From: Candidatus Hydrogenedentota bacterium | GTDB taxonomy: Bacteria > Hydrogenedentota > Hydrogenedentia > Hydrogenedentales > SLHB01 | Length of the DNA: 64,000 nt | Reading direction: 5' to 3' | Assembly: GCA_016215105.1 (NCBI GenBank) | Contig: JACRLJ010000081.1 | Location: 18,279 to 82,278, forward strand | Shown here: piece by piece, positions 37,357 to 53,460 of the stretch | Position numbering within the stretch: the first letter of the stretch is position 1 | How the letters are laid out: every line of letters begins with the position of its first letter | Notes under the pieces: generated by a model | Seen by the model: only the letters and a program-made list of their open reading frames with translations | Database searches by the model: none | What the model was told of the DNA's origin: nothing | Translations under genes and position numbers: made by a program

Positions 37357-37399
37357 TTGACAACGCCGCCGTAATTGTGGATGATTATATCCACAATTA
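37357..37399 (+). promoter_or_regulatory. nar operon promoter overlapped by an 11-bp-arm dyad
   Basis: TTGACA (37357-37362), a 17-bp spacer and GATGAT (37380-37385) form the promoter. A perfect inverted repeat, TAATTGTGGAT (37372-37382) and ATCCACAATTA (37389-37399), covers the -10. A bound protein would block RNA polymerase, so this is a strong candidate operator for the adjacent Rrf2 regulator. Confidence 0.7.
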
Positions 37400-37470
37400 G
37401 TGGACAGAAACGCACTCGTTGTGAAACAAAAGTATTCCCGATCGTTGGCGTGGGAACTGGGAGAAGCGAC

Positions 37471-38361
37471 GTGAGTAGGCGCTGGGTATCGTCAGCCGCA
37501 CTTATCAGGGGCGCTCTTGTATCTCTGATGGGGCTTACTGGGACGGCATGGGCACTGGAAGCGCCGGCCCCACCAGCGCCCAAGGAGGCGTCCGCGCCTG
37601 CGGCGGCCGTAGCAGACACTACCGCCAAACCGGCGCCCGCGCCCCCGGGCGCGGATCAGGCCGCGTCGGACAGCGCCGCAGCGGGATTCATGATGAAGTG
37701 CGCGGCATGCCACACCGTGGGCCGGGGGCCTTTGGTTGGACCCGACCTGAAAACTGCCTGTGGATGGCCCTCCAAGGACCTGTCCGCCGCCATAAAACGG
37801 ATGGAAAAAAACGTGGGACCTCTTAAGGACGAGGAAACTGCGTCGCTTGTTGAACTCCTTCACGCGCCCGAACTGCAAACTCGCCTGACCGCCGAACTGC
37901 AGCGAATGGCGTTGCGCCAGACCGTGAAGATGGAGCCTGCTTCGGCTGCGAAGGGCAAGAACTTGTTCGAAGGGAGCGACCCATTGACCAACGGCGGTGT
38001 GGCGTGCATGGCGTGCCACCGCGCGAACGGTATGGGCGGAACGCTCGCAAAAGATCTCACGGGCATCTTCGCGTTGCGCGGCCAGGCGGCGCTGCAATCC
38101 GCCTGCGAAAACACAAGCTTTCCGGTGATGAAGGCAGCCTTTCGCCAGCACCCCGTCACCAAGCAGGAGGCCTTTCATCTGGTGAAGTATTTCGAGTCGC
38201 TTCAACAAGTGGAATCGGCGCGTTCTGACCCGGCCGTTGCCGGTATTGGCATGGGGGGCGCCGCGCTGGCGTTCGGCCTGATCGGATTGGCCTACCGCGG
38301 CCGTAATCGCGGGATACGCGCGCGGCTGATGGCGAAATCGCTTAGGAGAAACGGCTCATGA
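37471..38361 (+). CDS. Membrane-anchored diheme cytochrome c of the nar operon
   Basis: A 296-residue protein with a signal peptide (about 1-29, ending Ala-Trp-Ala), then an Ala/Pro-rich linker. Two c-type haem sites follow, CAACH at 77-81 and CMACH at 179-183, each in a cytochrome-c-like domain. A C-terminal helix (about 255-278) with a basic tail should anchor it in the inner membrane, haems outside. GTG at 37471 has GGGAGAAG four bases upstream; the longer frame from 37375 overlaps the promoter and is unlikely. Its stop overlaps the narG ATG by four bases. The position recalls the diheme NarC that opens Thermus nar operons, but I infer analogy, not orthology. Confidence 0.8.
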
Positions 38362-41300
38362 CGTGGATTAAGGACATCTTCTCACCGGATCAACGGAGCT
38401 GGGAGGAGTTCTATCGCAATCGCTGGGCATACGACAAGGTGGTGCGCAGCACACACGGCGTCAATTGCACCGGCTCGTGCAGTTGGAACATCTACGTCAA
38501 GCAAGGCATCGTGACCTGGGAGATGCAGGCGCTCGACTATCCGATCATTGACAAAGAGATTCCCCCCTATGAGCCACGCGGCTGCCAACGGGGGATCTCC
38601 TATTCCTGGTACATCTACAGCCCACTACGGGTGAAGTATCCGTACGTTCGCGGGGCCTTGCTTGATCTGTGGCGGACGGCCAAACAGCAGCACCCCAACG
38701 ACCCGGTTGCGGCCTGGCGCTCGATCGTCACCAACCCCGAATCGCGGGCGCGGTTCCACCAGGCGCGCGGCAAAGGCGGATTACGGCGCGCGTCGTGGGA
38801 TGAGGCCAACGAAATCATCGCGGCCGCGAACATCTACACGGTGCAGGACCATGGTCCGGACCGTATCGTCGGTTTTTCGCCTATCCCCGCCATGTCCATG
38901 GTGAGTTACGCCAGTGGCGCCCGCTTCCTGCAATTGATGGGCGGGGTATGCCTTTCCTTTTACGACTGGTATTGCGACCTGCCGCCGGCCTCGCCCGAGA
39001 TCTGGGGTGAACAAACCGACGTGGCGGAGAGCGCGGACTGGTTTAAGTCGAAGTTTATCGCGACGGTCGGCTCCAATGTCTTGATGACCCGTACGCCCGA
39101 CGCGCACTTTCTGGTTGAAGTGCGCCACCGCGGCGCCAAGGTGGTGGTGTTCTCGCCCGACTTTAGCCAGACCTCCAAGGTCGCCGACGAGTGGATTCCC
39201 ATTCACCAGGGGCAGGACGGCGCCTTCTGGATGGCGGTGGTCCACGTCATTCTGAAGGAGTTTTATCTCGACCATGAGACGCCCTACTTCACCAAGTACA
39301 TGAAGAAGTACACCGACTCGGCCTTCTTGGTTACCCTTGAGGAGGGAGCGGACGGCCATTTCCGCGCGGGTAAGCTTCTGCGCGCGGCGCAAGTCGAGGC
39401 CTCCAAGCACGTCGAAAACTCCGAATGGAAGTTCTTCGCGTTTGACGAAGCGAGCGGCGACTTGAAGATGCCGCAGGGTACCGTCGGCCACCGTTGGCAA
39501 AAGCAAAAGGGCAACTGGAATCTCAAGCTCGAGGACGAATTGAGCGGCCAGGATTTCGATCCGGCGCTATTGCTAAACCAGCGCGCCGAAAAGACCCTCG
39601 CCATTGAAGTGTCGGATTTTTCCGAAGGCGCCAACGACACGGTGCTGCTGCGCGGTGTGCCGGCGCGCCGGGTACAGACCGTTGACGGCCCGGTGTGGGT
39701 CACGACCGCGTTTGAATTGATGCTGGCGCAGTACGGGGTGAATCGCGGTTTCGACGGCGAATGGCCCAAGAGCTACGACGATGACGCGGCGCCATTCACC
39801 CCGGCGTGGCAGGAGAAGTTCACCGGCATCAGCGCGTCGGTGGTAGTCAATTTTGCGCGGCAATGGGCGACAACGGCGGAAAAGACTGAAGGCAAGTGCT
39901 CGATCATCATCGGGGCCGGCGCCAACCACTGGTACCACAACAATCTGATTTATCGCGCGTGTATCAACGCGCTGATGGTGTGCGGGTGCGTCGGCAAGAA
40001 CGGAGGGGGCTGGAACCATTACGTGGGGCAGGAGAAGCTAGCTCCGCAGGCGTCTTGGGCGCCGATCGCGTTTGGCACGGACTGGGCGGGTCCGCCGCGC
40101 CTGCAGAATACACCATCGTTCCATTACGTCCACTCCGATCAGTGGCGGTATGACCGTCCGTTCGATGAGGTCTGTCCGGTCGCGAACGCGGAACACCGCA
40201 TGGCGCACGGACACACCATTGACAAGCAAATCCTGGCGGTGCGCAGCGGCTGGCTGCCGTGTTTCCCGCAGTTCAACAAGAGCAGTTTTGAGGTGGTCAA
40301 GGATGCCCAGGCAAAGGGCGCCAAGACTTCTGAAGAAGTGATTGCGCACACCGTCGACCAGTTGAAGAGCCGGGATCTGAGATTTGCCATGGAAGACCCG
40401 GATGCGCCGGAGTGTTTTCCCCGTGTGTGGTACATCTGGCGCGGTAACGCGATCCAGGCTTCGGCCAAGGGCCATGAGTACTTCCTGAAGCACTACTTAG
40501 GCACGCACAACAACTTGATTGCCCAAGAGGACGCTAAGGGTACGACCGAAGAAGTGACTTGGCACGACAAGGTCGAGTTGGGCAAGATGGACCTGATCGT
40601 GGACCTCAATTTCCGCATGGACACGTCGGCCTTGTACTCGGATATTGTGCTGCCGGCGGCGACGTACTACGAGAAGAACGATCTCAACACCACGGACATG
40701 CACTCCTTCATTCACCCCTTGCAAGCCGCTGTCCCGCCGTGTTGGGAGTCCCGTAGCGACTGGCAGATCTTCCGTGAGATCGCGAAGCAGACCAGTGAAC
40801 TGGCGAAGCGCTACCTCCCGCAGCCGATGAAAGATATCGTGCTGACTCCATTGATGCACGATACGGAGGCGGAGATTGCGCAGCCGGACATTCGGGACTG
40901 GAGCAAAGGCGAGTGCGAGGCCATGCCGGGCAAGACGATGCCGAACATGAGTGTTGTCGAGCGCGACTACACGACCGTGTACCAGCGGTTCATTTCGCTG
41001 GGGCCCAATTTCCGCAAAGGGTTGGGCGTCCACGGGACGACGTACGAGGTCGCCGACCTGTACGACGCCTATGGTCAGACCCACCCCACGGAGCGGTGGA
41101 ACAACGCGGTATACCCGTCGCTGAAAGAAGACCGCTCCGTATGCGACGTCATACTGCATTTTGCAGCGGAGACCAACGGGGAACTGGCCTACCGGGCGTT
41201 TGAAGCAGAGTCGCACAAGACTGGAATCGATCACACCCACCTGGCGGCGGACACCCGTGCGATCCGCATGACCTTTGACGACCTGACCCACGAGCCGCGG

Positions 41301-41987
41301 CGGCTGTTGACGACGCCCTATTGGACCGGCGTCACCAACGGCGCCCGGACCTATTCCGCCTATTGCCAAAACGTCGAAGAACTCATTCCCTGGCGTACCC
41401 TCACCGGCCGGCAGCACTTTTACTTTGACCACGAGGCCTACCGGGCCTTTGGCGAGCACCTGCCGACCTTCAAGCCGCGCGCGGACGTGTATGCCACCCG
41501 CGATTTAGTGCATACGGGCGTGGACCAAGGCGGAGTGACACTCAACTACATCACGCCGCACGGCAAATGGCACATTCACTCCACCTTTGGCGATAACCTG
41601 CGCATGGAATTGCTCTCGCGCGGTATCGAACCGATCTGGATGAACGACAAGGACGCCGGCCGCATCGGCATTCGCGACAATGACTGGGTCGAGGTGATCA
41701 ATGACCACGGCGTCGTGGTGACGCGGGCCTGCGTGAGCGCCCGGGTGCCCCGCGGCATGTGCATGATTTATCACGCCACCGAACGCACCGTGGGAACGCC
41801 CAAATCGAAAACGCGCGGCAATCGCCGCGCCGGCGCGCACAATAGTCTGACGCGCGCCCGCCTCAAGCCCTTATTCATGATAGGCGGCTACGGTCAGTTT
41901 ACCTACGCCTTTAATTATTGGGGCCCCCAGGGCGTCAACCGCGACACCTTTGTCGTGGTGAAACGCGTGGAGAAGCCGTCGTGGTAA
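38358..41987 (+). CDS. narG: Respiratory nitrate reductase alpha subunit
   Basis: A 1209-residue molybdopterin enzyme, close to the usual 1230-1250. It reduces nitrate to nitrite. Residues His33, Cys37, Cys41 and Cys76 (in [11 protein letters not shown] and GCQRG) match the His/three-Cys ligand set of the FS0 cluster. Asp207 in [18 protein letters not shown] is the molybdenum ligand typical of Nar[15 protein letters not shown] and [11 protein letters not shown] are further family blocks. There is no Tat signal at the N-terminus ([15 protein letters not shown]), so it should face the cytoplasm with NarH. It is translationally coupled to the diheme cytochrome gene (ATGA) and lies 22 bp before narH. 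Confidence 0.96.
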
Positions 41988-42009: not shown

Positions 42010-43503
42010 ATGGACGTTCGCGCACATGTCGCCATGGTCTTCCACCTGGACAAATGTATCGGATGCCACACGTGCAGTATCGCCTGCAAGAACGTGTGGA
42101 CGGATCGCCCCGGCGCCGAGTACATGTGGTGGAATAATGTCGAAACCAAACCCGGCACGGGCTATCCGACGCAGTGGGAAGACCAGACCAATTATCAGGG
42201 CGGCTGGAAAGTCACCGACCAGCGTGAACTGGTTTTGCGCGGACAGAACCGTCGAAACACCGTTCTCAAGTTGTTCTACAATCCCAACCAGCCCGGCTTG
42301 GACGACTACTACGAGCCGTGGACCTATCGCTACGAAGACCTCTTCAATGCGCCGGAAGGCGATGACCAGCCGACGGCGATCCCGATCTCGCAGATCACCG
42401 GCGAGCCGATTGATATCGAGGCCGGCCCGAATTGGGACGACGACCTGTCCGGGTCGCCGGTCTACGCGGAAAACGACCCCAATTTGAGCCGGCTGACCGA
42501 GGATGAGCGCAACGCGCTTTTCGAGGTCGAACGCCTGACGATGATGTATCTGCCGCGCATCTGCAACCATTGCGTGAATCCCAGTTGCGTCGCAGCCTGT
42601 CCGTCCGGCGCGATCTACAAACGCGGCGAAGACGGCATCGTCTTGATCAATCAGGAAGTGTGCCGCGGCTGGCGCGCCTGCGTGTCCGCGTGCCCGTACA
42701 AGAAGATCTATTACAACTGGCAGACAGGCAAGTCGGAAAAATGCATTCTGTGCTATCCGCGCCTCGAAACTGGCCAAGCCCCTGCCTGCTTTCACTCGTG
42801 TGTGGGACGTATCCGCTATATGGGCGTTCTGTTTTACGATGCGGACCGGCTGGAAGACGCCATGAAGGCTCCCGAAGAGTCTCTCGTTGAATCACACCGA
42901 AGCGTCCTGCTCGATCCCAACGATCCCGCCGTGATCGCCGGGGCCAAGGCCAACGGCATCAGCCCGGAGTTTATCGAGTCCGCGCAGAAATCGCCGATCT
43001 GGAAATACGTGATGGAATGGCAGGTGGCGCTTCCGCTTCACGCCGAATTCCGCACGATGCCGATGCTCTATTACGTTCCGCCGCTATTGCCCGTGATGGG
43101 CCGTTCCGGCGACGGCATTTACGCGCACGATACCGAAGAGTTCTTTGGACACCTGCAAAAGGCGCGGTTGCCCATTAAGTATCTTGCCTCCTTGTTTGGC
43201 GCCGGCAATACGGAGGTGGTGGAAGCCGCGATGAAGCGCCTGATGGCCGTGCGCTACTTCAAACGGGCCGAGGGTGTGGGCGACGTGGACGAAGACAAGG
43301 TCAAGCGGGTTCTGCGCGAGGCCCAACTCACCGCCGAACAGGCCGAGGCCATCTACCGGCTAACGTCGCTTTGCACCGTGCATGACCGGTACGTGATGCC
43401 GCCGATTCAGCGTGAAGAGGCCATGACCGAATCCTGCAGCGCGGAAATGTGCAAAGGCCAGTGCGGACTGGGCACGACGACGCCGCCGCAACGGGGAGCA
43501 TGA
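42010..43503 (+). CDS. narH: Respiratory nitrate reductase beta subunit
   Basis: A 497-residue iron-sulfur electron-transfer subunit that wires NarI to NarG. Four cysteine clusters are visible: CIGCHTCSIAC from Cys16, CNHCVNPSCVAACP, CRGWRACVSACPYKK and CILCYPRLETGQAPACFHSC. The Trp in CRGW replaces one Cys, as in the known NarH subunits that hold one [3Fe-4S] and three [4Fe-4S] clusters. Length and order match the family. The stop overlaps the narJ start by four bases (ATGA). Confidence 0.96.
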   Translation: MDVRAHVAMVFHLDKCIGCHTCSIACKNVWTDRPGAEYMWWNNVETKPGTGYPTQWEDQTNYQGGWKVTDQRELVLRGQNRRNTVLKLFYNPNQPGLDDYYEPWTYRYEDLFNAPEGDDQPTAIPISQITGEPIDIEAGPNWDDDLSGSPVYAENDPNLSRLTEDERNALFEVERLTMMYLPRICNHCVNPSCVAACPSGAIYKRGEDGIVLINQEVCRGWRACVSACPYKKIYYNWQTGKSEKCILCYPRLETGQAPACFHSCVGRIRYMGVLFYDADRLEDAMKAPEESLVESHRSVLLDPNDPAVIAGAKANGISPEFIESAQKSPIWKYVMEWQVALPLHAEFRTMPMLYYVPPLLPVMGRSGDGIYAHDTEEFFGHLQKARLPIKYLASLFGAGNTEVVEAAMKRLMAVRYFKRAEGVGDVDEDKVKRVLREAQLTAEQAEAIYRLTSLCTVHDRYVMPPIQREEAMTESCSAEMCKGQCGLGTTTPPQRGA

Positions 43504-44051
43504 CCGTGACTGCGACTCTTATTGAGCGTTCACTGTTTGCCGCGGTGGGAGTACTGCTCGAATATCCCCGCGCTGGCTATTTCGCACACGTCGCCGCTAC
43601 ACACGACGCGATGGTGGAAAGCTGCCCAGACGCGGCGCTCGGTCTTTCGGAGTTCTTGGACGCCGTCGATGGAAAAGACCTGTCCGAACTCGAAGATCTC
43701 TACGCGCGCACGTTTGATTTTGCGCCGCTGTGTAATGCCTACGTCAGTGTGCACCTTTTCGGCGACGAAAGTTTCAAGAGATCCCAATTGATGTCTGGCC
43801 TGGTAGAGGCCTACCAGCGGGCGGGGTTCGACCCCGGCGCCGAATTGCCCGATCACTTGGCCGTAATTTTGCGCTTCGCGCCCCAGTTGTCCGGCGCGGA
43901 ATGGGACGATATGGTCACTTGCTGCCTGCGCTCGGCCGTTACAAAAATGATCGAGCCGCTCGAACGCGCGGCGAATCCTTACCACCATGCGCTCCGCGCG
44001 CTGCTCCGGATGCTCGACGCCGATTATCCCCAGGAGGCAAATCATGTTTGA
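43500..44051 (+). CDS. narJ: Nitrate reductase assembly chaperone
   Basis: A 183-residue all-helical protein of the NarJ/TorD chaperone family, which guides molybdenum-cofactor insertion and membrane docking of NarGH. Diagnostic are VGVLLEYP near the N-terminus, LEDLYARTFDFAPLCNAYVSVHLFGDES in the middle (the Tyr-x-x-x-Phe-Asp block) and a PDHLAVILRFA segment. The frame is open from 43449 but the ATG at 43500 overlaps the narH stop. The 3' end overlaps the NarI-Rieske start by eight bases, indicating tight coupling. Confidence 0.92.
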   Translation: MTVTATLIERSLFAAVGVLLEYPRAGYFAHVAATHDAMVESCPDAALGLSEFLDAVDGKDLSELEDLYARTFDFAPLCNAYVSVHLFGDESFKRSQLMSGLVEAYQRAGFDPGAELPDHLAVILRFAPQLSGAEWDDMVTCCLRSAVTKMIEPLERAANPYHHALRALLRMLDADYPQEANHV

Positions 44052-45357
44052 TGTGTTCTTTTTTGTTGGGTTGCCCTACATCGCGGTGTTCACGATGGTG
44101 GCGGGGACGATCTACCGCTTTCGCAAGGACCGACTCGGTGTCTCCTCGCTGTCGTCGCAGTTTCTTGAGAGTAAGGCGCTGCTTTGGGGATCGGTCCCGT
44201 GGCATATCGGCATCGCCGTTGTATTCCTCGGACATCTGATTCCCCTGCTCGCGCCGGGGGTGTGGCAAGCGCTGGTCGCGCGCCGCGCCTTCCTAATCAC
44301 GATAGAGACACTGGGCTCGTGCGCCGCATCGCTCTGTTTGGTGGGATTGGTGATTCTGGCGATTCGCCGATTTGCGAGCTCCAAACTCCAAACGGTGACT
44401 ACGGCCATGGACTTGGTGGTGGTGAACTTGCTCATCGCGCAAGTGGTGTTAGGTCTTGGAGTCGCCACGGCGCACCGCTGGGGCGCGGTGTGGTCCACGG
44501 GGACCACGACGCCGTATCTGTGGTCCTTGCTCCGGTTCAATCCCGACGTCTCGTACGTCGCCGAACTGCCCGCGTTGGTTCGAGTGCATTTGGTGGGCGC
44601 CTTCGTGGTGTTTCTGCTGGTCCCGTTTTCCCGGCTCGTGCATATGTTTTCGCTTCCTCTGGAATATCTATTCCGCCCGCCGCAAAAAGTGGTCTGGGCC
44701 AATCCACGGCGCCTGCTTCATGCGCATGCCGCCGTCGCCGCGATGGAAAGCCGCCGTCTGTTCTTGAAGGCGTCGTTTGGCTTGGCCGGGGCGGGAGCAT
44801 TGTTGTCGGTCGGAGTCTTTGACAAGTTTCTCGGCTTCTTCCGCGGTCCGCGCATGACCCCGGACGAGGAGGCGAAATTGCTCAAGACCCGGCTGGATCG
44901 CCTGCAACTCACCGTGGAAGAACGCGAGCTTGAACTGGAACGAATCCGCAGTGAGCAGATCTTCGTGGCCAAGGTTGGCGAACTGTCTCCGAAGGACGGA
45001 AAGTACTTCATTGATTACAAAATGCGGCCCGCGCTGGCCTTTCGTGACGAGCAAGGGTTGCCGAGGCTCATTTCCGCCAAATGCACGCATCTGGGCTGTA
45101 CCGTCGCCAGCTCGGTCGACAGCACGAACCGGCTGCTGTGCCCGTGCCATATGTCCTATTTCGATGTGAAGTCCGGCGCCCCGCTAGAAGGGTCGCCAGC
45201 CAAGGCCCCCTTGCCGTTGCTGGGCTGGATCTTGGTCGATCCCAATGGCAAAACGGTGGCGAGCCAAGGTCCTGACGGAAAACTCGAAGGCAAGCCCGAC
45301 CCCGCGACCCTGGACGTGTGCAGCGTCTATATCGCCAAGCAGTACGAGGAGGCGTAA
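44044..45357 (+). CDS. narI: NarI cytochrome b subunit fused to a Rieske iron-sulfur protein
   Basis: A 437-residue fusion. Residues 1-225 are NarI: five hydrophobic helices with haem b ligands H54-x9-H64 and H182-x17-H200, the same spacings as E. coli NarI. A twin-arginine-like segment SRRLFLK (236-242) and another hydrophobic helix (about 243-258) follow, then a short coiled coil (about 275-305). The Rieske domain has Cys347-x-His349 and Cys366-x2-His369 as [2Fe-2S] ligands (CTHLGC, CPCHMSYFD) and Cys352/Cys368 for the disulfide. GGAGG lies seven bases before the ATG. The fusion couples the nitrate reductase membrane anchor to the electron entry of a bc-type complex, whose cytochrome b is the next gene. 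Confidence 0.9.
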   Translation: MFDVFFFVGLPYIAVFTMVAGTIYRFRKDRLGVSSLSSQFLESKALLWGSVPWHIGIAVVFLGHLIPLLAPGVWQALVARRAFLITIETLGSCAASLCLVGLVILAIRRFASSKLQTVTTAMDLVVVNLLIAQVVLGLGVATAHRWGAVWSTGTTTPYLWSLLRFNPDVSYVAELPALVRVHLVGAFVVFLLVPFSRLVHMFSLPLEYLFRPPQKVVWANPRRLLHAHAAVAAMESRRLFLKASFGLAGAGALLSVGVFDKFLGFFRGPRMTPDEEAKLLKTRLDRLQLTVEERELELERIRSEQIFVAKVGELSPKDGKYFIDYKMRPALAFRDEQGLPRLISAKCTHLGCTVASSVDSTNRLLCPCHMSYFDVKSGAPLEGSPAKAPLPLLGWILVDPNGKTVASQGPDGKLEGKPDPATLDVCSVYIAKQYEEA

Positions 45358-45359
45358 AC

Positions 45360-46463
45360 ATGCCCACTGCGCGGACACAAGACCTGATGCGCTTTTTGGC
45401 GGAACGCTTTCCCCTTGAGAAGTTCAGCTTTCGCTCGCTTGTCCAGAAGAAGGAGGTGCCCCTTCACAAGATGGCGTGGGCCTACTACCTTGGTGGATTG
45501 GCGCTGTTTTGCTTCTTCATTCAATTATCGACCGGTCTACTGCTACTGTTCTACTACGAGCCGACCGTTAGTGATGCGCATGCCTCGGTGGAGTTTATTA
45601 CGCATAACGTCAGCGGTGGCGCTCTGATTCGTAACCTCCACACCTGGTCGTCGTCGGCGATGATCCTGTTTGTCCTGGCGCATTTGGTTACGACCTTCGC
45701 CATGAAGGCGTTTGAGAAACCCCGGGAGATGACCTGGATCAGCGGCGTGGTTCTGCTCTTGTTGACCTTCGCCTTCGGGTTTACCGGCTATCTACTGCCG
45801 TGGCACCAGATCGCGGTAAACGCGACCAAGGTCGGACTGCAATCCATTGAAGAGGCCGGCCGCTATCTTCCCGGCGAGTTGGGCAAGTTGCCCGGACAGA
45901 TCAAAGAACTCATCCAGGGCGAACAAAGTGTTGGCCAGGCGACGCTGAGCCGCTTCTACGCGCTCCATGTGGTCATCTTGCCGTTTACCTTGTGCGCCCT
46001 GCTCGGCTTCCACTTGCTTTCGGTTCAGTTACATGGAATGAGTCAGGGCGTGGATAAGGCGACGAACAAGACGGAGGCGTTCTTCCCGTTCTTCCTCTTG
46101 AAGGATTTCTCGCTGTGGGGAATTGGGTTTCTGGTCATGTTTGTGTTGGCCCTATGTCTCCCCTTTGAGTCCTTCTTTTCCTTTCCGCTCTTCCAGCCCT
46201 TTGACCCGCTCGGCTCCACGCCCGAAGGTATCAAACCGGAGTGGTACTTCTTCTTCGTCTATTATCCGCTGGAGTTGCTGCCTTTCTGGTTCATCATGTT
46301 GGCGTCAACCGTCGCGCTGGGCGGGCTTTTTATGACGCCGTGGCTGTTTCGTCCTGCGAACCGCCGCACCTTGGCCTTCCTGGCGTGCGCGGCCGCGCTG
46401 TACCTGATTGTGATGACCGTGTTCGGGCAGAACATTTACGCCTTGTTCAAAGGAAGCCAGTAA
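45360..46463 (+). CDS. Cytochrome b of a b6f/bc-type complex
   Basis: A 367-residue membrane protein combining the four-helix haem domain and the subunit IV part. Haem ligands are H94-x13-H108 and H203-x14-H218; the 14-residue gap in helix D is the b6f type rather than mitochondrial bc1. The quinol-oxidation motif PEWY is at 293-296. At the position of the b6 Cys that binds the extra c-type haem it has Tyr (AYYLGG), so that haem is not expected by this criterion. It starts two bases after the NarI-Rieske stop with GAGGAGG upstream. Together they should form a quinol:cytochrome c oxidoreductase within the nar operon. Confidence 0.92.
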   Translation: MPTARTQDLMRFLAERFPLEKFSFRSLVQKKEVPLHKMAWAYYLGGLALFCFFIQLSTGLLLLFYYEPTVSDAHASVEFITHNVSGGALIRNLHTWSSSAMILFVLAHLVTTFAMKAFEKPREMTWISGVVLLLLTFAFGFTGYLLPWHQIAVNATKVGLQSIEEAGRYLPGELGKLPGQIKELIQGEQSVGQATLSRFYALHVVILPFTLCALLGFHLLSVQLHGMSQGVDKATNKTEAFFPFFLLKDFSLWGIGFLVMFVLALCLPFESFFSFPLFQPFDPLGSTPEGIKPEWYFFFVYYPLELLPFWFIMLASTVALGGLFMTPWLFRPANRRTLAFLACAAALYLIVMTVFGQNIYALFKGSQ

Positions 46464-47095
46464 TGTCTATGCGGAGGAACCAACCCATGGCGCTGCGTGT
46501 CGCGATACTCTTCGGCGTGGCGGCGCTGGCCGGGCGGGGCGCACACGCCTATCCCGAGTTTCAGCGCTATAGTCAGCAGGTATCCGGGCGATTCGTGAAT
46601 TGCGCGATGTGCCATGTCCATCCGGACGGTCCCATAGGCCTAAAGCCCGGCCAAATTGGCAAGCTGACTCCGGCCGAGTTGGGCCAGTTGAATAGCGCGC
46701 GCGGCGCGTTTCTGCCCGGGCAGGATGTTATGAATCCCATCTTGAACGAGTTTGGAAACGCGTTGCTCAAGAAGCTTGGAAAGAAGCGCATACTCGAGCT
46801 GCGGCTGCAACCCGACCAGTTGGCCGACGCGTACGGGTATGAAAGCGATATCGATGGCGACGGCGTTCCGGACGCGCACGAGTTCCTGCAAGGCACGGAC
46901 CCCGTCGATCCGCAAAACGGGGCGCCTTGGGCGCTTTTCACGCACAACCTTCGCCGCTATGCGTTCCCACACTTATTCCTACTGGTCACGGCAACGGCGC
47001 TGGGGCTGTTCGGGATGAATAACCTGTTGAAGTGGTTTCATCAGACGATGGACAAAGGCTCGCCAGAGCCCGGCGCCACGGGGACAAAGCACTAG
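46463..47095 (+). CDS. Monoheme cytochrome c with calcium-loop and C-terminal anchor
   Basis: A 210-residue exported protein. Signal peptide about 1-28. One haem site, CAMCH at 47-51, lies in an unusual context followed by VHPDG. A calcium-binding thrombospondin-3-like loop, DIDGDGVPDAHEF, occurs near residue 133. A hydrophobic helix (about 172-192) anchors the C-terminus. The start codon overlaps the cytochrome b stop (TAATG). By position it is the cytochrome c subunit of the Rieske/cytochrome b complex. I do not recognise a named family. Confidence 0.75.
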   Translation: MSMRRNQPMALRVAILFGVAALAGRGAHAYPEFQRYSQQVSGRFVNCAMCHVHPDGPIGLKPGQIGKLTPAELGQLNSARGAFLPGQDVMNPILNEFGNALLKKLGKKRILELRLQPDQLADAYGYESDIDGDGVPDAHEFLQGTDPVDPQNGAPWALFTHNLRRYAFPHLFLLVTATALGLFGMNNLLKWFHQTMDKGSPEPGATGTKH

Positions 47096-47129: not shown

Positions 47130-48641
47130 ATGGCCGGTAACGGGAAGGCCGTCACTGTGTTAGCGCTCAATACCTTGGCGTTCACGGTGTGTTTTGCGTG
47201 TTGGATGCTCAATGGCGTACTCATCACCTTCTTCAGTGAGAACCAACTCTTTCATTTTACTGATTCTCAAATCGGCTGGCTCATAGGTATCCCCGTGCTG
47301 AGCGGATCACTCATCCGCCTGCCGGTAGGCATCTTGACGGACAAGTACGGCGGGAAGTGGGTCTATGCGGGCGTGATGCTTATCGCCGCAATCCCCATGT
47401 ATCTGCTGAGCTACGCCCACACCTTCGCGCATTTCTTCTGGGCCAGCCTCGGGTTCGGACTTGCCGGCACGTCGTTTGCCGTCGGTATCGCCTACACCTC
47501 GGTCTGGTTCAAGCGCGAACATCAAGGCGCCGCATTGGGGATCTTTGGCGCGGGAAACGCGGGCGCGGCGCTGACTAGTATGGGCGCGCCGGTGCTCCTG
47601 CGCTGGCTGACCAACAACGGCGAAAACCTCGAGGCGTGGCGGCAGATGCCCCGCATTTACGCCGCCAGTTTGGTCATTATGACCGTGGTGTTCGCGCTTC
47701 TTGCCTGGCCCAAAAAAGTCGACGATACGCACATCACGAGTTTGCGTCAGCGCCTCGAGCCCTTGCGCTATCCCCGCGTCTGGCGCTTCGGCCTCTACTA
47801 CTTCTTGGTCTTCGGCGGATTCGTCGCCTTGTCCCAGTGGCTCATTCCCTATTACGTCAGCGTCTACATGATGCCCCTGGCCACGGCCGGTATGGTTGCG
47901 TCCATATTCAGCCTGCCGTCCGGAGTCATTCGCGCTCTGGGCGGATTTCTTTCCGATCACTACGGCGCCCGCAGGGTCATGTATTGGGTGCTTAGCAGTT
48001 GCCTGGTCTGCTGCGCCTTGCTAATCATTCCGCGCATGGATATCCACTCGCCCGGCAAAGGAATCATGGTCAAGCGCAGCGGCACAGTGACCAAGGTTAT
48101 CCCAACACAAATCATGGTGGACGACCTGGCCTATGCCGTAAAGGCGGAAGGTGAGGCGATATCCAAGGACCAAACCCTGCTCGTCCTGCCTACGCTTCGG
48201 ACCTGGCAAGAGCCTGTCGTCAAGGTGGGCGATAAGGTCAAGAAGAAACAACTTCTCGCGAGCGGCATGACGCACATCTACTTCCAAGCCAATGTCTGGG
48301 TATTCACCGGACTGGTCTTCGTTGTCGGCATCATGATGGGGATAGGCAAGGCCGCTGTGTATAAACACATTCCTGAATACTTCCCAAAGGAGGTCGGCGT
48401 CGTGGGCGGTATCGTGGGTGTGTTGGGCGGTCTCGGCGGATTCTTCTGTCCTATCCTGTTCGGCTACATGCTAGAGTGGACAGGGCTATGGATCACCTGT
48501 TGGTTCTTCTTTGCGGGGCTGGCCGCGGTGTGCCTGTGCTGGATGCATGTGGTCATTCAGCAAATGATGAACCGGGAAGCGGCAATTCACGCGGAAAAGA
48601 TCGAGTACATGGCGCCGGCGGCGGTGGCTGAGAACGCATAG
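47130..48641 (+). CDS. narK: NarK-type nitrate/nitrite transporter with lipoyl-like insertion
   Basis: A 503-residue major facilitator transporter. Nitrate signature motifs are FGAGNAGAALTSMG and GVVGGIVGVLGGLGG. The first half and the last 120 residues are normal NarK. Between them, about residues 303-382, an inserted soluble segment reads as a small beta domain: KRSGTVTKVIPTQIMV followed by VVKVGDKVKKKQLLASG, the latter resembling the turn of biotinyl/lipoyl or HlyD-type hammerhead domains. The insert lies after a helix ending ALLIIPRMD. It is the first of two adjacent narK genes, 35 bp after the monoheme cytochrome gene. An antiporter or proton symporter role is possible. Confidence 0.9.
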   Translation: MAGNGKAVTVLALNTLAFTVCFACWMLNGVLITFFSENQLFHFTDSQIGWLIGIPVLSGSLIRLPVGILTDKYGGKWVYAGVMLIAAIPMYLLSYAHTFAHFFWASLGFGLAGTSFAVGIAYTSVWFKREHQGAALGIFGAGNAGAALTSMGAPVLLRWLTNNGENLEAWRQMPRIYAASLVIMTVVFALLAWPKKVDDTHITSLRQRLEPLRYPRVWRFGLYYFLVFGGFVALSQWLIPYYVSVYMMPLATAGMVASIFSLPSGVIRALGGFLSDHYGARRVMYWVLSSCLVCCALLIIPRMDIHSPGKGIMVKRSGTVTKVIPTQIMVDDLAYAVKAEGEAISKDQTLLVLPTLRTWQEPVVKVGDKVKKKQLLASGMTHIYFQANVWVFTGLVFVVGIMMGIGKAAVYKHIPEYFPKEVGVVGGIVGVLGGLGGFFCPILFGYMLEWTGLWITCWFFFAGLAAVCLCWMHVVIQQMMNREAAIHAEKIEYMAPAAVAENA

Positions 48642-48668: not shown

Positions 48669-50285
48669 ATGAGTCGTAATACCCAGTGGGACCCGGAAGA
48701 TAGTGCGTTCTGGGAACGCGAGGGAAAGGGCATTGCGTTCCGTAACTTATGGATCTCGATCCCCAACCTGCTGATGGGGTTTGGCATTTGGATTTACTGG
48801 AGCGTTATCGTCAGTGTCATCCAGGGAATTCATGATGGCAACGTGGCGTTGTTTGCATTTCTGGATCCAAACGGCCAACCCCTTACTGGCAACGCCTACA
48901 AAGCGCTGCTGTACACGCTTCCGGCGGTGGCCGGCTTGTCGGGCGCGACCTTGCGTATCCCGAACTCGTTCATGATCGCCATCTGCGGCGGGCGCAATGT
49001 GAAATTCATGACCTCGCTGCTGCTGATCGTGCCGGCACTGAGCACCGGCTTCGCCTTGAAAGATCCCAGCACGCCCTTCTTCACCTACATTGTTCTGGCT
49101 GCGCTGTGCGGCGTCGGCGGGGGGGCGTTTGCGTCGTCCATGTCCAACATCAATTTCTTCTTCCCGAAACGCATGCAAGGCCTGTCACTTGGACTAAACG
49201 CGGGACTGGGAAACTTGGGCGTGTCCGTGTTCCAACTTGCCATTCCGTGGGTAATTACCTTCGGTATCTTCGGCGGCCCATCGTTTACCATGAAAGGCGC
49301 GCCGGTTTGGCCGCACAATGCAGCCTTGGTGTGGGTTCCCATCCTCGGACTGCTTACCCTGCTCGCGTTCACGCTCATGAACAACCTGCCGCAGCATTTT
49401 TCGGGTTCGACGCTGGTGGCCTGCGGCCGCTATCTCTGGCTCGAACTGCTGGGGTACTGCGGCGTCGCCGTGGCGATCACGTTATTGCTGCAATCTAAAA
49501 CCTGGACCTTCGCGCCTGAGCTGGTCAGGACGCTGGTGATCGTGGTGGTGGCGGTAGCGGTGACGATGGCGCTGATGCGCTTTGCCACCCCGCGTCAGAC
49601 CCGCGACAGTCTGCAGAAGCAGTTCGTTATCTTCTCGAACAAGCACAATTGGGTCATGACTTACCTCTATGTCATGACCTTCGGAAGCTTCATTGGCTAC
49701 TCAAGCGCGTTTCCAAAACTCCTCAAGGACGTGTTCGGCTATATTCGCGTTGACGCGCAGGGCGCTCCATTGGCGGACGCCATCGTAAACCCTAACGCTC
49801 CCGACATCCTCAAGTATGCGTTTCTGGGCGCCGCCATGGGCGCCGCGATTCGGCCGGTCGGAGGCTGGCTCTCGGATAAGCTCGGCGGCGCACGGGTCAC
49901 GCAGTGGGACACGCTGATTATGACGATTACCGCCGTGGCGTGCGGGTGGGTGGTGAAACTGGCCATGGCCTCTGCGCATCCCGAAACTTACTTCATGCCT
50001 TTCCTGCTCCTGTTTATCCTCCTGTTCGCAACCACCGGGATCGGAAACGGCTCGACGTTTCGCATGATCGCCGTCATTTTCCCGAAGGATCAGGCCGGAC
50101 CCGTGCTAGGATGGACTTCCGCGGTGGCGGCCTATGGCGCCTTCTTGATCCCCACTATCTTTGCATCGCAAATCACCGCCGGACGGCCTGAATACGCCAT
50201 GTATGGTTTCGCGATCTATTACGTGACGTGTCTGGCATTGAATTGGTGGTACTACGCCCGAGCAAATGCGGAGGTGAAATGTTAA
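48669..50285 (+). CDS. narK: Second NarK-type nitrate/nitrite transporter
   Basis: A 538-residue major facilitator transporter with about 12 helices. Signature motifs are GLNAGLGNLGVS and TTGIGNGSTFRM. It is longer than the family norm because of a 40-residue N-terminal extension, MSRNTQWDPEDSAFWEREG, that is seen in some NarK2-type members. AGGAGG eight bases before the ATG at 48669 decides the start over a GTG at 48651. With the preceding gene it matches the NarK1/NarK2 pairs of denitrifiers: one typically a nitrate/proton symporter, the other a nitrate/nitrite antiporter. Which is which is not decidable here. Confidence 0.92.
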   Translation: MSRNTQWDPEDSAFWEREGKGIAFRNLWISIPNLLMGFGIWIYWSVIVSVIQGIHDGNVALFAFLDPNGQPLTGNAYKALLYTLPAVAGLSGATLRIPNSFMIAICGGRNVKFMTSLLLIVPALSTGFALKDPSTPFFTYIVLAALCGVGGGAFASSMSNINFFFPKRMQGLSLGLNAGLGNLGVSVFQLAIPWVITFGIFGGPSFTMKGAPVWPHNAALVWVPILGLLTLLAFTLMNNLPQHFSGSTLVACGRYLWLELLGYCGVAVAITLLLQSKTWTFAPELVRTLVIVVVAVAVTMALMRFATPRQTRDSLQKQFVIFSNKHNWVMTYLYVMTFGSFIGYSSAFPKLLKDVFGYIRVDAQGAPLADAIVNPNAPDILKYAFLGAAMGAAIRPVGGWLSDKLGGARVTQWDTLIMTITAVACGWVVKLAMASAHPETYFMPFLLLFILLFATTGIGNGSTFRMIAVIFPKDQAGPVLGWTSAVAAYGAFLIPTIFASQITAGRPEYAMYGFAIYYVTCLALNWWYYARANAEVKC

Positions 50286-50326
50286 GTGGAAGGTGGAGTT
50301 AAACTAACGTGGGAGGTCAATGGGTC

Positions 50327-51898
50327 ATGAAGGAAAGGATTCTGTTGTTGGCGCTCGCGATGACGCTCGTGTCGTCCGCATTCGCCGAGCTCCAAGATGT
50401 CGTGGCGGGTGGGTCTATCAAGATTCGCGGCGGACGGTATATGGACACGTACACGTCTCCAACGAACCGCCAGATCCGCTGGCCGGGATTCTTCCTGCCT
50501 ACACGCGCCATTGGCGACGTCAACGGCGGACAAACGGTGCTTAGTCCGTATTCGTGGGGCGGTTCGAACGACACGGCGGTCGTGCAGCAATACACCAAGC
50601 TCAATGTGCGCGGCGATTTCACCAACGACGTCAGCGCGTTCATCGAACTGGACAGCTACGCGCGATGGGGCCGGGACTTCCGCTCCAACTACATCACCGG
50701 CTTCGATTTCCGCAACACGCCCTCGCCCAACGACGTCGATCTCTATCAGGGCTACATCGAAGCGCGCAACATGTTCGGGTATCCTGTGCGCGCGCGCATT
50801 GGCCGTCAGGAATTGGCCTTTGGCGGTCAGTGGCTGGTCGGCGCCGGTGGCGGCGGCACGTATCTGTCCAAGCGTTCGTTTGACGGGATCCGCCTGACCT
50901 ACGACACGGACAAGTTCACCGTGGACGCCTGGTGGTCCAAGCTCGCCGAGAACTCGCCGCTCGAACAGGACGGCGACATAGACTTCTACGGGATCTACGG
51001 AACGTACAAGGGTATCGAGAATATTACGCTCGATGCGTACTGGCTCCTGGTTCGCGATGCGCGCCGATTGAACGATACCAACTTCGCATGGTTCCCCGAG
51101 TACATCGAGGATGTTCTCAACATTGATGACTACGACGTGACCAATTTGAACACCGTTGGTCTTCGCGGCGCGGGCACGTATGGCGCGTTCGATTTCAACG
51201 CGGAAGCTGCCTACCAGTTTGGAAACGCCGATCAGATCGGGTCCCGGTTTAAGCCCTTCACCTACGGCGACGATAGCGCGAGTTTTGACGGGCTGTGGGG
51301 CGGTAACGTCGAGTTGGGCTACACCTTCGACATGAACTATACGCCGCGCATCTATATCGGCGGAACGTATTTTGACGGCGAAGACAACCGCTCGATCAGC
51401 TTCTGGAACTGGATCAATCCCTTTGATCGTCCGCAGGCCAGTGTCGGCTTCAACCGCCTGTTTTCGGCGAACCAGTACAGCGTGTTTCTGGACGCCCGCG
51501 CGTCGGCTAATATGTCGAACGTGGGTATCATTCGCGGCGGCGTGAAGGTCACTCCGACCGAAGCGACGGAAGTGTCGTTGAACTTGTCCTACTTTGAGTC
51601 TGTGGGCAATTTTTCCGCGCCTCGCCATTTCTCCATCGGCAAGTTTCGCGTGCCCATTGCCCCCGCGCTCAGTTTCTGGGATCAGAAAAACTCGTCCGAT
51701 CTCGGGATCGAACTGGATCTGGTCGGCGTCTACAAGTACAGCCAGGACCTGGACTTCAAGGCCGGTTACTCGCACTTGTTCGTGGGTGATGGCTTGGCGC
51801 AGGGTAATTACAACGCCTTTAACGGGCTCGGGTTTAACGGGGGACGCGATAACAAAGACGCCGACTACCTGTTCTTCGAGACCGCAATTACATTCTAG
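50327..51898 (+). CDS. Outer-membrane beta-barrel porin (alginate-export-like)
   Basis: A 523-residue protein with a signal peptide (about 1-20, ending Ala-Phe-Ala). The rest is alternating amphipathic strands rich in Tyr, Gly, Asp and Arg, ending in a terminal Phe (FETAITF), the outer-membrane insertion signature. Blocks such as ARIGRQELAFGG, a DGIRLTYDTDKFTVDAWW strand and the aromatic girdles resemble the alginate-export (AlgE-like) porin family. It probably passes nitrate, nitrite or another small anion across the outer membrane. GGGAGG precedes the ATG by ten bases. It lies 41 bp after narK and belongs to the operon by spacing. Confidence 0.75.
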   Translation: MKERILLLALAMTLVSSAFAELQDVVAGGSIKIRGGRYMDTYTSPTNRQIRWPGFFLPTRAIGDVNGGQTVLSPYSWGGSNDTAVVQQYTKLNVRGDFTNDVSAFIELDSYARWGRDFRSNYITGFDFRNTPSPNDVDLYQGYIEARNMFGYPVRARIGRQELAFGGQWLVGAGGGGTYLSKRSFDGIRLTYDTDKFTVDAWWSKLAENSPLEQDGDIDFYGIYGTYKGIENITLDAYWLLVRDARRLNDTNFAWFPEYIEDVLNIDDYDVTNLNTVGLRGAGTYGAFDFNAEAAYQFGNADQIGSRFKPFTYGDDSASFDGLWGGNVELGYTFDMNYTPRIYIGGTYFDGEDNRSISFWNWINPFDRPQASVGFNRLFSANQYSVFLDARASANMSNVGIIRGGVKVTPTEATEVSLNLSYFESVGNFSAPRHFSIGKFRVPIAPALSFWDQKNSSDLGIELDLVGVYKYSQDLDFKAGYSHLFVGDGLAQGNYNAFNGLGFNGGRDNKDADYLFFETAITF

Positions 51899-51956
51899 TT
51901 TGAAAGCGGCCTGAGCCGGATCTCCGAGATACGGTTCAGGTCGAGTAATCTGAAGC

Positions 51957-51990
51957 TCCGGGTTGGAACGCGCTCGCGTTCCAACCCGGA
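51957..51990 (+). terminator. Long perfect hairpin between porin and octaheme cytochrome genes
   Basis: TCCGGGTTGGAACGCG (51957-51972) pairs fully with 51975-51990, leaving a two-base loop. No T-run follows, so it is more likely an attenuator, processing site or 3' protective structure within the operon than a full terminator. Confidence 0.6.
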
Positions 51991-52020: not shown

Positions 52021-53460
52021 ATGAATACCACAATAAAACAACTTTCTTTGGTTCTATGCGCGCTGATTCTGCCGCGCGCGGCCTGGAGCGAACTTCCGGC
52101 GTCGTTGTCCGCGGAATCCGCAGCCTGTATAGCGTGTCATAAACAACAAAACCCGGGGATCTACGAGCAGTGGGGCGCAAGCAAGCATTTTCGCGCCAAT
52201 GTCGGCTGCTACGAGTGCCACAAAGCCGAAAAAGGCGACCCGGACGCCTTCGAGCACTTCAATACACTCATTTCGCTCATCGTCAGTCCGAAAGACTGTG
52301 CCCGGTGCCACGAACACGAAGTCGCGGAGTTTGTGGCATCGCACCACTCCAAGGCGGCGCGAATTCTGGGCTCTTTGGACAATGTGCTGGCCGAAGTGGT
52401 CGAAGGAAGTACGGGGCTCGTGACCCCAATGTTCCCAGGCGGGTTGTCCGCGGCTGCGGTCAGCGGCTGCTGGCAGTGTCACGGGGCCGAGGTCAAAGTG
52501 CTGTCCGACCGGGGGCTTGATCCCGCCACGTGGCCCAACACCGGAATAGGCCGCATCAATCCGGACGGCTCCGAGGGGTCGTGCAGCGCGTGCCATTCGC
52601 GGCACACGTTTTCGGCTGCGCAGGCCCGCGATCCCGAGAATTGCGGCAAGTGTCACATGGGGCCGGACCATCCGCAGCTCGAGATTTACAACGAATCCAA
52701 GCACGGAATCGCGTTTCGGGCCAACCGCGACAAAATGAAACTCGACAATGCCAAGTGGATCGTTGGCGAGGACTACAGCGCGGCGCCCACGTGCGCCACT
52801 TGTCACATAAGCGCCACCAAGAATCAGCCCGTTACCCACGACGTCGGCCTGCGCATTAGCTGGAACAATCGGCCCGCGGTGTCGATTCGGCCCGAGGTGT
52901 CCGACGCGAAAATGGGTCTGCCCGGAAAAGATATTACCTGGGAAACGCGCCGCGGCAACATGACCGATGTGTGCGCAAGTTGCCATACCGCCCAATACGT
53001 AACCAATTTTTACACCCAATACGATGGCATTGTGAATGAATACCACACTAAGTTTGCGAAGCCCGGCCTCGAACTGATGGCGGCGGCGAAGCCCTTGCTC
53101 AAGCCGGTCGAATTCTCAAATCCGGTAGACTGGACCTGGTTTGAGTTGTGGCATCATCAGGGCCGCAGGGCGCGCCATGGGGCCTCCATGATGGGGCCCG
53201 ATTACACTCACTGGCATGGTACGTATGAAGTGGCGAAGAGTTTCTACACCGAGTTGATTCCGGAGCTCGAAGGCCTGGTGAAGGAGAACCTCGAATCGAA
53301 AGAGCCGGCCAGGTGCAAGGCGGCCGAGGCGCTACAAAAGAAAATCGAGGAGGTGCTGAATCAGGATTCGCACAAGTGGTATCTCAACAAAATGGACCCC
53401 AAAGAGGCCAACGAGCGCAAAAAGCGCACCGAGGAGTTTCAACAGCGCTATAAGAAATAG
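52021..53460 (+). CDS. Octaheme cytochrome c of the hydroxylamine oxidoreductase family
   Basis: A 479-residue periplasmic cytochrome with a signal peptide (about 1-22). Eight haem sites appear in order: CIACH (from Cys36), CYECH, CARCH, CWQCH, CSACH, CGKCH, CATCH and CASCH. The helical C-terminal part carries a WHHQGRRARHGASMMGPD segment with YTHWHG at 395-400, the HAO-family block. It should therefore be HAO-like and not NrfA (no CxxCK) or tetrathionate reductase. HAO relatives either oxidise hydroxylamine (with a haem-crosslinked Tyr) or, in nitrate-reducing bacteria, reduce nitrite or hydroxylamine. I cannot assign the crosslink Tyr by eye. The nar context suggests the reductive role. GGGAG eight bases before the ATG at 52021 decides the start. 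Confidence 0.88.
   Translation: MNTTIKQLSLVLCALILPRAAWSELPASLSAESAACIACHKQQNPGIYEQWGASKHFRANVGCYECHKAEKGDPDAFEHFNTLISLIVSPKDCARCHEHEVAEFVASHHSKAARILGSLDNVLAEVVEGSTGLVTPMFPGGLSAAAVSGCWQCHGAEVKVLSDRGLDPATWPNTGIGRINPDGSEGSCSACHSRHTFSAAQARDPENCGKCHMGPDHPQLEIYNESKHGIAFRANRDKMKLDNAKWIVGEDYSAAPTCATCHISATKNQPVTHDVGLRISWNNRPAVSIRPEVSDAKMGLPGKDITWETRRGNMTDVCASCHTAQYVTNFYTQYDGIVNEYHTKFAKPGLELMAAAKPLLKPVEFSNPVDWTWFELWHHQGRRARHGASMMGPDYTHWHGTYEVAKSFYTELIPELEGLVKENLESKEPARCKAAEALQKKIEEVLNQDSHKWYLNKMDPKEANERKKRTEEFQQRYKK

Follow-up and report, generated by a model that had tools for sequence, protein, structure and literature searches.

An octaheme HAO-family cytochrome without the cross-link tyrosine, predicted to reduce nitrite, closes a nar operon in Hydrogenedentota

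The nar operon and its last gene

The window, the 64,000-nucleotide stretch of DNA analysed here, lies on a 108 kb contig of a Hydrogenedentota metagenome-assembled genome (MAG) 6.68 Mb in size, 95.2% complete and 2.6% contaminated. Its forward strand carries eleven co-directional genes in the order cytC-narGHJ-narI/Rieske-cytb-cytC-narK-narK-porin-HAO. The first is an open reading frame (ORF) for a dihaem cytochrome c with two CxxCH motifs (37375-38361), found at the same place in seven Hydrogenedentota nar operons. This is followed by genes for the alpha subunit of a respiratory nitrate reductase, narG (38358-41987; TIGR01580, 1558 bits against a cut-off of 1084), the beta subunit, narH (42010-43503; TIGR01660, 644 bits against a cut-off of 524), and the chaperone narJ (43449-44051; PF02613). 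In the next gene (44044-45357), a single ORF joins narI to a Rieske domain, with PF02665 matching residues 4-218 and PF00355 residues 306-390. Downstream are a cytochrome b of the bc/b6f type (45360-46463; PF00033, E 4e-43), a monohaem cytochrome c with one CxxCH (46463-47095), which occupies the same place in relatives, two NarK-type nitrate/nitrite transporters (47130-48641, assigned to the MFS/NarK family, and 48669-50285; TIGR00886, E 7e-79) and an outer-membrane porin of the alginate-export type (50324-51898; PF13372, E 7e-35). NarI, Rieske, cytochrome b and cytochrome c follow one another in the same way in seven other nar operons of the phylum. Between transmembrane helices of the first NarK lies a soluble insert of roughly 90 residues (48040-48330), kept in the NarK1 of relatives, which by eye resembles a barrel-sandwich (lipoyl-like) domain.

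The last gene, HAO (52021-53460, boundaries exact), encodes a 479 aa octaheme cytochrome. The initial annotation's placement of this gene in a nar operon is confirmed by its co-directional position at the operon end, 122 bp after the porin gene; every earlier gap in the operon is at most 38 bp. The porin-HAO interval harbours two strong RNA hairpins (51907-51990, forward strand) with 12 and 15 bp stems, no T run and a fold z of -7.7, which may set the HAO message apart or make it more stable. The operon is conserved through the NarK genes in seven other Hydrogenedentota (G006, G034, G035, G036, G047, G051 and G052), and neither porin nor HAO was present in the 7 kb 3' of it in G034, G035, G036 and G047.

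Family of the octaheme protein

The protein begins with a signal-peptide-like segment and is predicted to be secreted. Its eight haem motifs (CIACH, CYECH, CARCH, CWQCH, CSACH, CGKCH, CATCH and CASCH) and a match to PF13447 (E 1.2e-24) place it within the HAO superfamily, in agreement with the initial annotation; its orthologues are 68-76% identical. A phmmer search of the PDB returned Ignicoccus IhOCC (4qo5, E 7.9e-51), Kuenenia HAOr (kustc0458; 6h5l, E 2.4e-21) and Nitrosomonas HAO (E ~1e-17), and a profile-based search ranked the structures identically. The octaheme families ONR, OTR and MccA, a better match to any of which had been named as grounds for rejecting the assignment, gave nothing at E <= 0.001 in the profile search, the sole rival family being NrfA, through a short local match (E 4e-5). 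On these comparisons, the best solved relatives of the protein are IhOCC and HAOr, not ONR, OTR or MccA. Foldseek comparisons of an AlphaFold model (pLDDT 73, pTM 0.72) likewise returned only 4qo5 (E 1.8e-12) and 6h5l (E 3.7e-6) below 0.001, with ONR at 4.6; since the model is mediocre and the TM-scores low, at about 0.3, this support for the family is weak and comes from the E-values only. IhOCC, the closest structure, nevertheless differs in being about 25% identical, archaeal and of unsettled function.

The cross-link position

In the hydroxylamine-oxidising HAO of nitrifiers, a cross-link tyrosine makes the enzyme an oxidase. The corresponding column was located with ten HAOs of the AOB/methanotroph type reached through a search of Gammaproteobacteria, one of them 81% identical to a Nitrosomonas HAO segment. 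Their C-terminal block is like AHVNPGGWTYTEGW, an H-x7-Y pattern, which MAFFT L-INS-i aligned without gaps to SMMGPDYTHWHG of the window protein, setting M390 opposite the histidine and W398 opposite the tyrosine. A global profile alignment shifted the register by one, with H397 in the cross-link column, and the C-terminal part of an hhalign global alignment with anammox HDH-like proteins was unusable. The register is accordingly given as uncertain by one residue, W398 or H397, and the AlphaFold model is unable to settle it, as residues 392-398 fall below pLDDT 50; neither register puts a tyrosine at the column, at which none occurs anywhere in the clade. Both states have published counterparts: the eHao proteins have a Trp for the cross-link Tyr, preceded at a distance of eight residues by Met (PMC8940962), a signature that the window protein shares through M390 and W398, and the reductive state at this column has been called His (PMC12758564), matching H397.

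Within a 96-row alignment of the clade, W398 is conserved in all 94 rows that reach it and M390 in 93 of 96; at position 397, 81 of 94 rows have His and 13 have Gln. As judged from the alignments, the cross-link tyrosine is absent, because W398 is invariant and the nearby Tyr395 is replaced by Ile in 20 of 94 rows; Trp398 or His397 stands where oxidative, P460-type HAO and HDH have Tyr. The initial annotation had singled out Tyr395 in the GPD-YTHWHG block and proposed an alignment to find the cross-link position. The residue exists as described, but it is not that position, being variable (Tyr 69, Ile 20, Trp 3, Phe 2) and two to three residues off the column. The Tyr of the nitrifier RWANYP stretch (Arg284 here) was also rejected as a second marker, because some methanotroph-type references have another residue there. 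All 96 rows retain D216 and H217, the residues that align with the nitrifier Asp-His pair. The residue to check in such HAOs can thereby be named. The gammaproteobacterial octaheme HAO-like proteins L149-L153 are encoded by related ORFs that lie side by side in pairs, and no Tyr or Trp of theirs aligns with the cross-link column.

Relatives and their gene contexts

A genome scan identified more than 550 relatives, and a scan of viral contigs none. The best 80 of these, at 55-75% identity, come from Verrucomicrobiota, Planctomycetota (including Scalindua), Nitrospirota, Bdellovibrionota, Omnitrophota, KSB1 and others, and from Gammaproteobacteria (Thioglobus, Sedimenticola and Thiomargarita). 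In a quick maximum likelihood tree, which gave long-branch warnings on deep forks, the clade stands apart from nitrifier HAO, from HDH/HOX-like proteins of Scalindua and from HAOr, with AOB HAO and anammox HDH on separate branches and the Scalindua row resembling HAOr kustc0458 in another clade. The window protein groups with Hydrogenedentota and Verrucomicrobiota sequences (support 97).

Among the same best 80 relatives, an NrfD/DsrP gene lies nearby in at least 42, a TAT-type FeS protein of the DsrO/NrfC type in at least 40, a tetrahaem cytochrome in at least 36 and a NapA-like gene in at least 15, these counts being lower bounds as many contigs end early. The usual partner of HAO elsewhere is thus a quinol-interacting module, and sometimes a periplasmic nitrate reductase. 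Next to HAO or NapA, 18 of the 80 have a small conserved protein, about 150 aa long, that matches no Pfam family (e.g. L044 9374-9829 and L070 12672-13106).

In Hydrogenedentota that carry both HAO and the conserved nar operon, HAO sits in a separate NrfD operon, and a porin 48-49% identical to that of the window adjoins HAO in G047 and G048. The window genome retains an NrfD operon, the tetrahaem, FeS and NrfD genes of which are 46-75% identical to those of G048; contigs C32 and C43 both end within its NrfD gene, and no HAO follows that gene. The simplest reading is that, in this lineage, HAO and perhaps the porin with it would have left the NrfD operon for the nar operon. Two ORFs lying a few kb away from the split NrfD gene encode large multihaem cytochromes with 19 and 11 CxxCH motifs (L172 2924-5707 and 568-2535, on C43).

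Distribution of HAO, NrfA and other nitrogen genes

Across 68 Hydrogenedentota genomes, HAO of this clade was found in 15 (G027 by a fragment) and full NrfA matches in 43. Both occur in two genomes, HAO only in 13, NrfA only in 41 and neither in 12 (Fisher p 1.1e-5); the exclusion holds among genomes at least 90% complete (p 3.7e-4) and with genera as units (3 both, 9 HAO only, 24 NrfA only and 8 neither; p 0.0045), all these tests counting genomes or genera as units and ignoring species-tree kinship. Of 14 genomes with NarG, 13 have either HAO or NrfA alone and only G054 has both. Genus g40 is itself divided, with HAO in three species and NrfA in the fourth. Such near-exclusion is what functional replacement predicts; together with the swap within one genus, it amounts to a phylum-wide natural experiment on whether non-cross-linked HAOs act as respiratory nitrite reductases.

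The initial annotation had remarked that the window contains no nirS, nirK or NrfA, which proved correct and extends to the whole genome: NrfA had no match, NirS only partial, propeller-type ones, none full-length or credible, and NirK exceeded the cut-off in none of the 68 genomes. These absences are not certain for the window genome, as the MAG is 95% complete. A qNor-type domain was not found there either, and qNor is present in only five of the 15 HAO carriers. As clues to the product of HAO, qNor, NirK and NirS were set aside, qNor having no clear link to HAO and the NirS-family PF02239 matches being short propeller repeats. The window genome has one Hcp, scoring as the hydroxylamine reductase equivalog and located beside an Rrf2 regulator, and G047 has Hcp between HAO and the porin; Hcp was rejected as a discriminating marker because PF03063 also matches CO dehydrogenase and gives such matches in NrfA genomes as well.

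Proposed function and alternatives

Since it lacks the tyrosine that makes an oxidase, the HAO protein most likely reduces the nitrite made by its own operon, standing in for NrfA. We therefore regard it as probably a periplasmic, non-cross-linked nitrite reductase acting downstream of NarGHI. The invariant D216/H217, the proximity to IhOCC and HAOr, the NrfD and napA contexts, the exclusion with NrfA, the lack of NrfA, NirK, credible NirS and qNor matches in the window genome and the presence of Hcp all favour reduction; the expectation of the initial annotation that an HAO without the tyrosine would be reductive is thus the better supported of its two branches. In outline, NarGH would convert nitrate to nitrite in the cytoplasm, nitrite would exit through NarK, and HAO would reduce it in the periplasm at haem 4. 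Electrons may pass from quinol to cytochromes c and on to HAO by way of the operon's own Rieske/cytochrome b complex, or enter the cytochromes c from the DsrOP/NrfCD-like module, whose genes lie at another site in the genome. The product would most likely be hydroxylamine and/or ammonium, with Hcp finishing any hydroxylamine. This bears on the fate of nitrogen, retention as ammonium or gaseous loss, in nitrate-respiring Hydrogenedentota.

There is precedent for such a role in Nautilia, where nitrite ammonification by an HAO-like protein was proposed as a reverse-HURM pathway (PMC3701875), in Deferribacter, with a pathway of this type (PMC6896113), and in Caldithrix, where a Rieske/cytochrome b complex was also proposed as donor to an HAO-like protein in nitrite ammonification (PMC5317091). 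Other observations count against it. BOGUAY_0691 of Beggiatoa, which adjoins napAB, is related to Thiomargarita and SUP05 proteins and probably belongs to the clade of the window protein, oxidised hydroxylamine and hydrazine as well as reducing nitrite in vitro, and nitrite did not support growth of Ca. Thioglobus autotrophicus, a SUP05 bacterium that has a homologue (PMC6449678). Despite its nap-hao genes, Deferribacter desulfuricans stops at nitrite (PMC6896113), and two Hydrogenedentota genomes have HAO and NrfA together, which counts against replacement. Absence of the tyrosine is consequently a guide to direction, not a proof, and, as BOGUAY_0691 showed both activities, the direction of the reaction is inferred.

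A more ambitious proposal, which we consider rather unlikely, is that the single operon would encode a complete quinol-to-ammonium chain, in which HAO, moved from its ancestral NrfD module, is fed in the periplasm by the Rieske/cytochrome b complex built on the NarI-Rieske fusion. The route would then differ from those of NrfAH and NrfABCD in coupling nitrite reduction to proton translocation.

It is also unlikely, though consistent with the rank of HAOr as second-best solved relative, that the protein reduces nitrite to NO and opens a denitrification-type route. HAOr catalyses this reaction (PMC12485887), and its Scalindua counterpart has Trp in the cross-link stretch, yet the tree places the HAOr-like row outside the clade of the window protein and qNor is missing from the window genome and from most HAO carriers. 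In a Scalindua protein (L134, genome G068), a multicopper-oxidase-like N-terminal region precedes an HAOr-like octaheme protein in one frame.

Detoxification was proposed for the Beggiatoa protein (PMC6449678) and sulphur substrates for other HAO-like proteins (PMC9213671), but a mainly non-respiratory role, whether in removing nitrite, hydroxylamine or NO or in reducing a sulphur compound, is very unlikely given the shared operon with nitrate reductase here and the napA or NrfD modules elsewhere. Oxidation of hydroxylamine or hydrazine, with electrons entering the Rieske/cytochrome b complex, would suit the family and the in vitro activities of BOGUAY_0691 but is highly improbable, as the cross-link Tyr is absent, HAO is associated with nitrate reductases and largely excludes NrfA, and no hydroxylamine source was identified within the window. 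Such proteins are annotated as hydroxylamine oxidoreductase, so nitrification is read into organisms that most likely reduce nitrite.

Comparison with known systems

The kind of enzyme is already known, whereas its placement in a nar operon and the phylum-wide exclusion with NrfA were not found described in the literature searched. The Nap-linked eHao or reverse-HURM systems (Nautilia and Campylobacter, also Caldithrix and Deferribacter) likewise lack the cross-link Tyr, lie beside nitrate reductase and have Hcp in the genome, but they operate with Nap and CycB, whereas HAO here accompanies membrane-bound NarGHJI and a Rieske/cytochrome b complex. An octaheme clade of hypersaline mats has been tied to nitrate-reductase records, none of its reported members lying in a nar operon (PMC8940962). 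Among the Beggiatoa/SUP05/Thiomargarita octaheme cytochromes, the Thiomargarita and Thioglobus proteins share the clade of the window HAO; the Thioglobus gene adjoins NapAB, and no nar-operon member was reported (PMC6449678). Nitrosomonas HAO has in common the haem pattern around haems 5-8 and the Asp-His pair, but belongs to another clade and has the cross-link Tyr that is replaced here. Kuenenia HAOr is likewise octaheme, non-cross-linked and reductive, differing in its separate clade, 17% identity, anammox setting and formation of NO.
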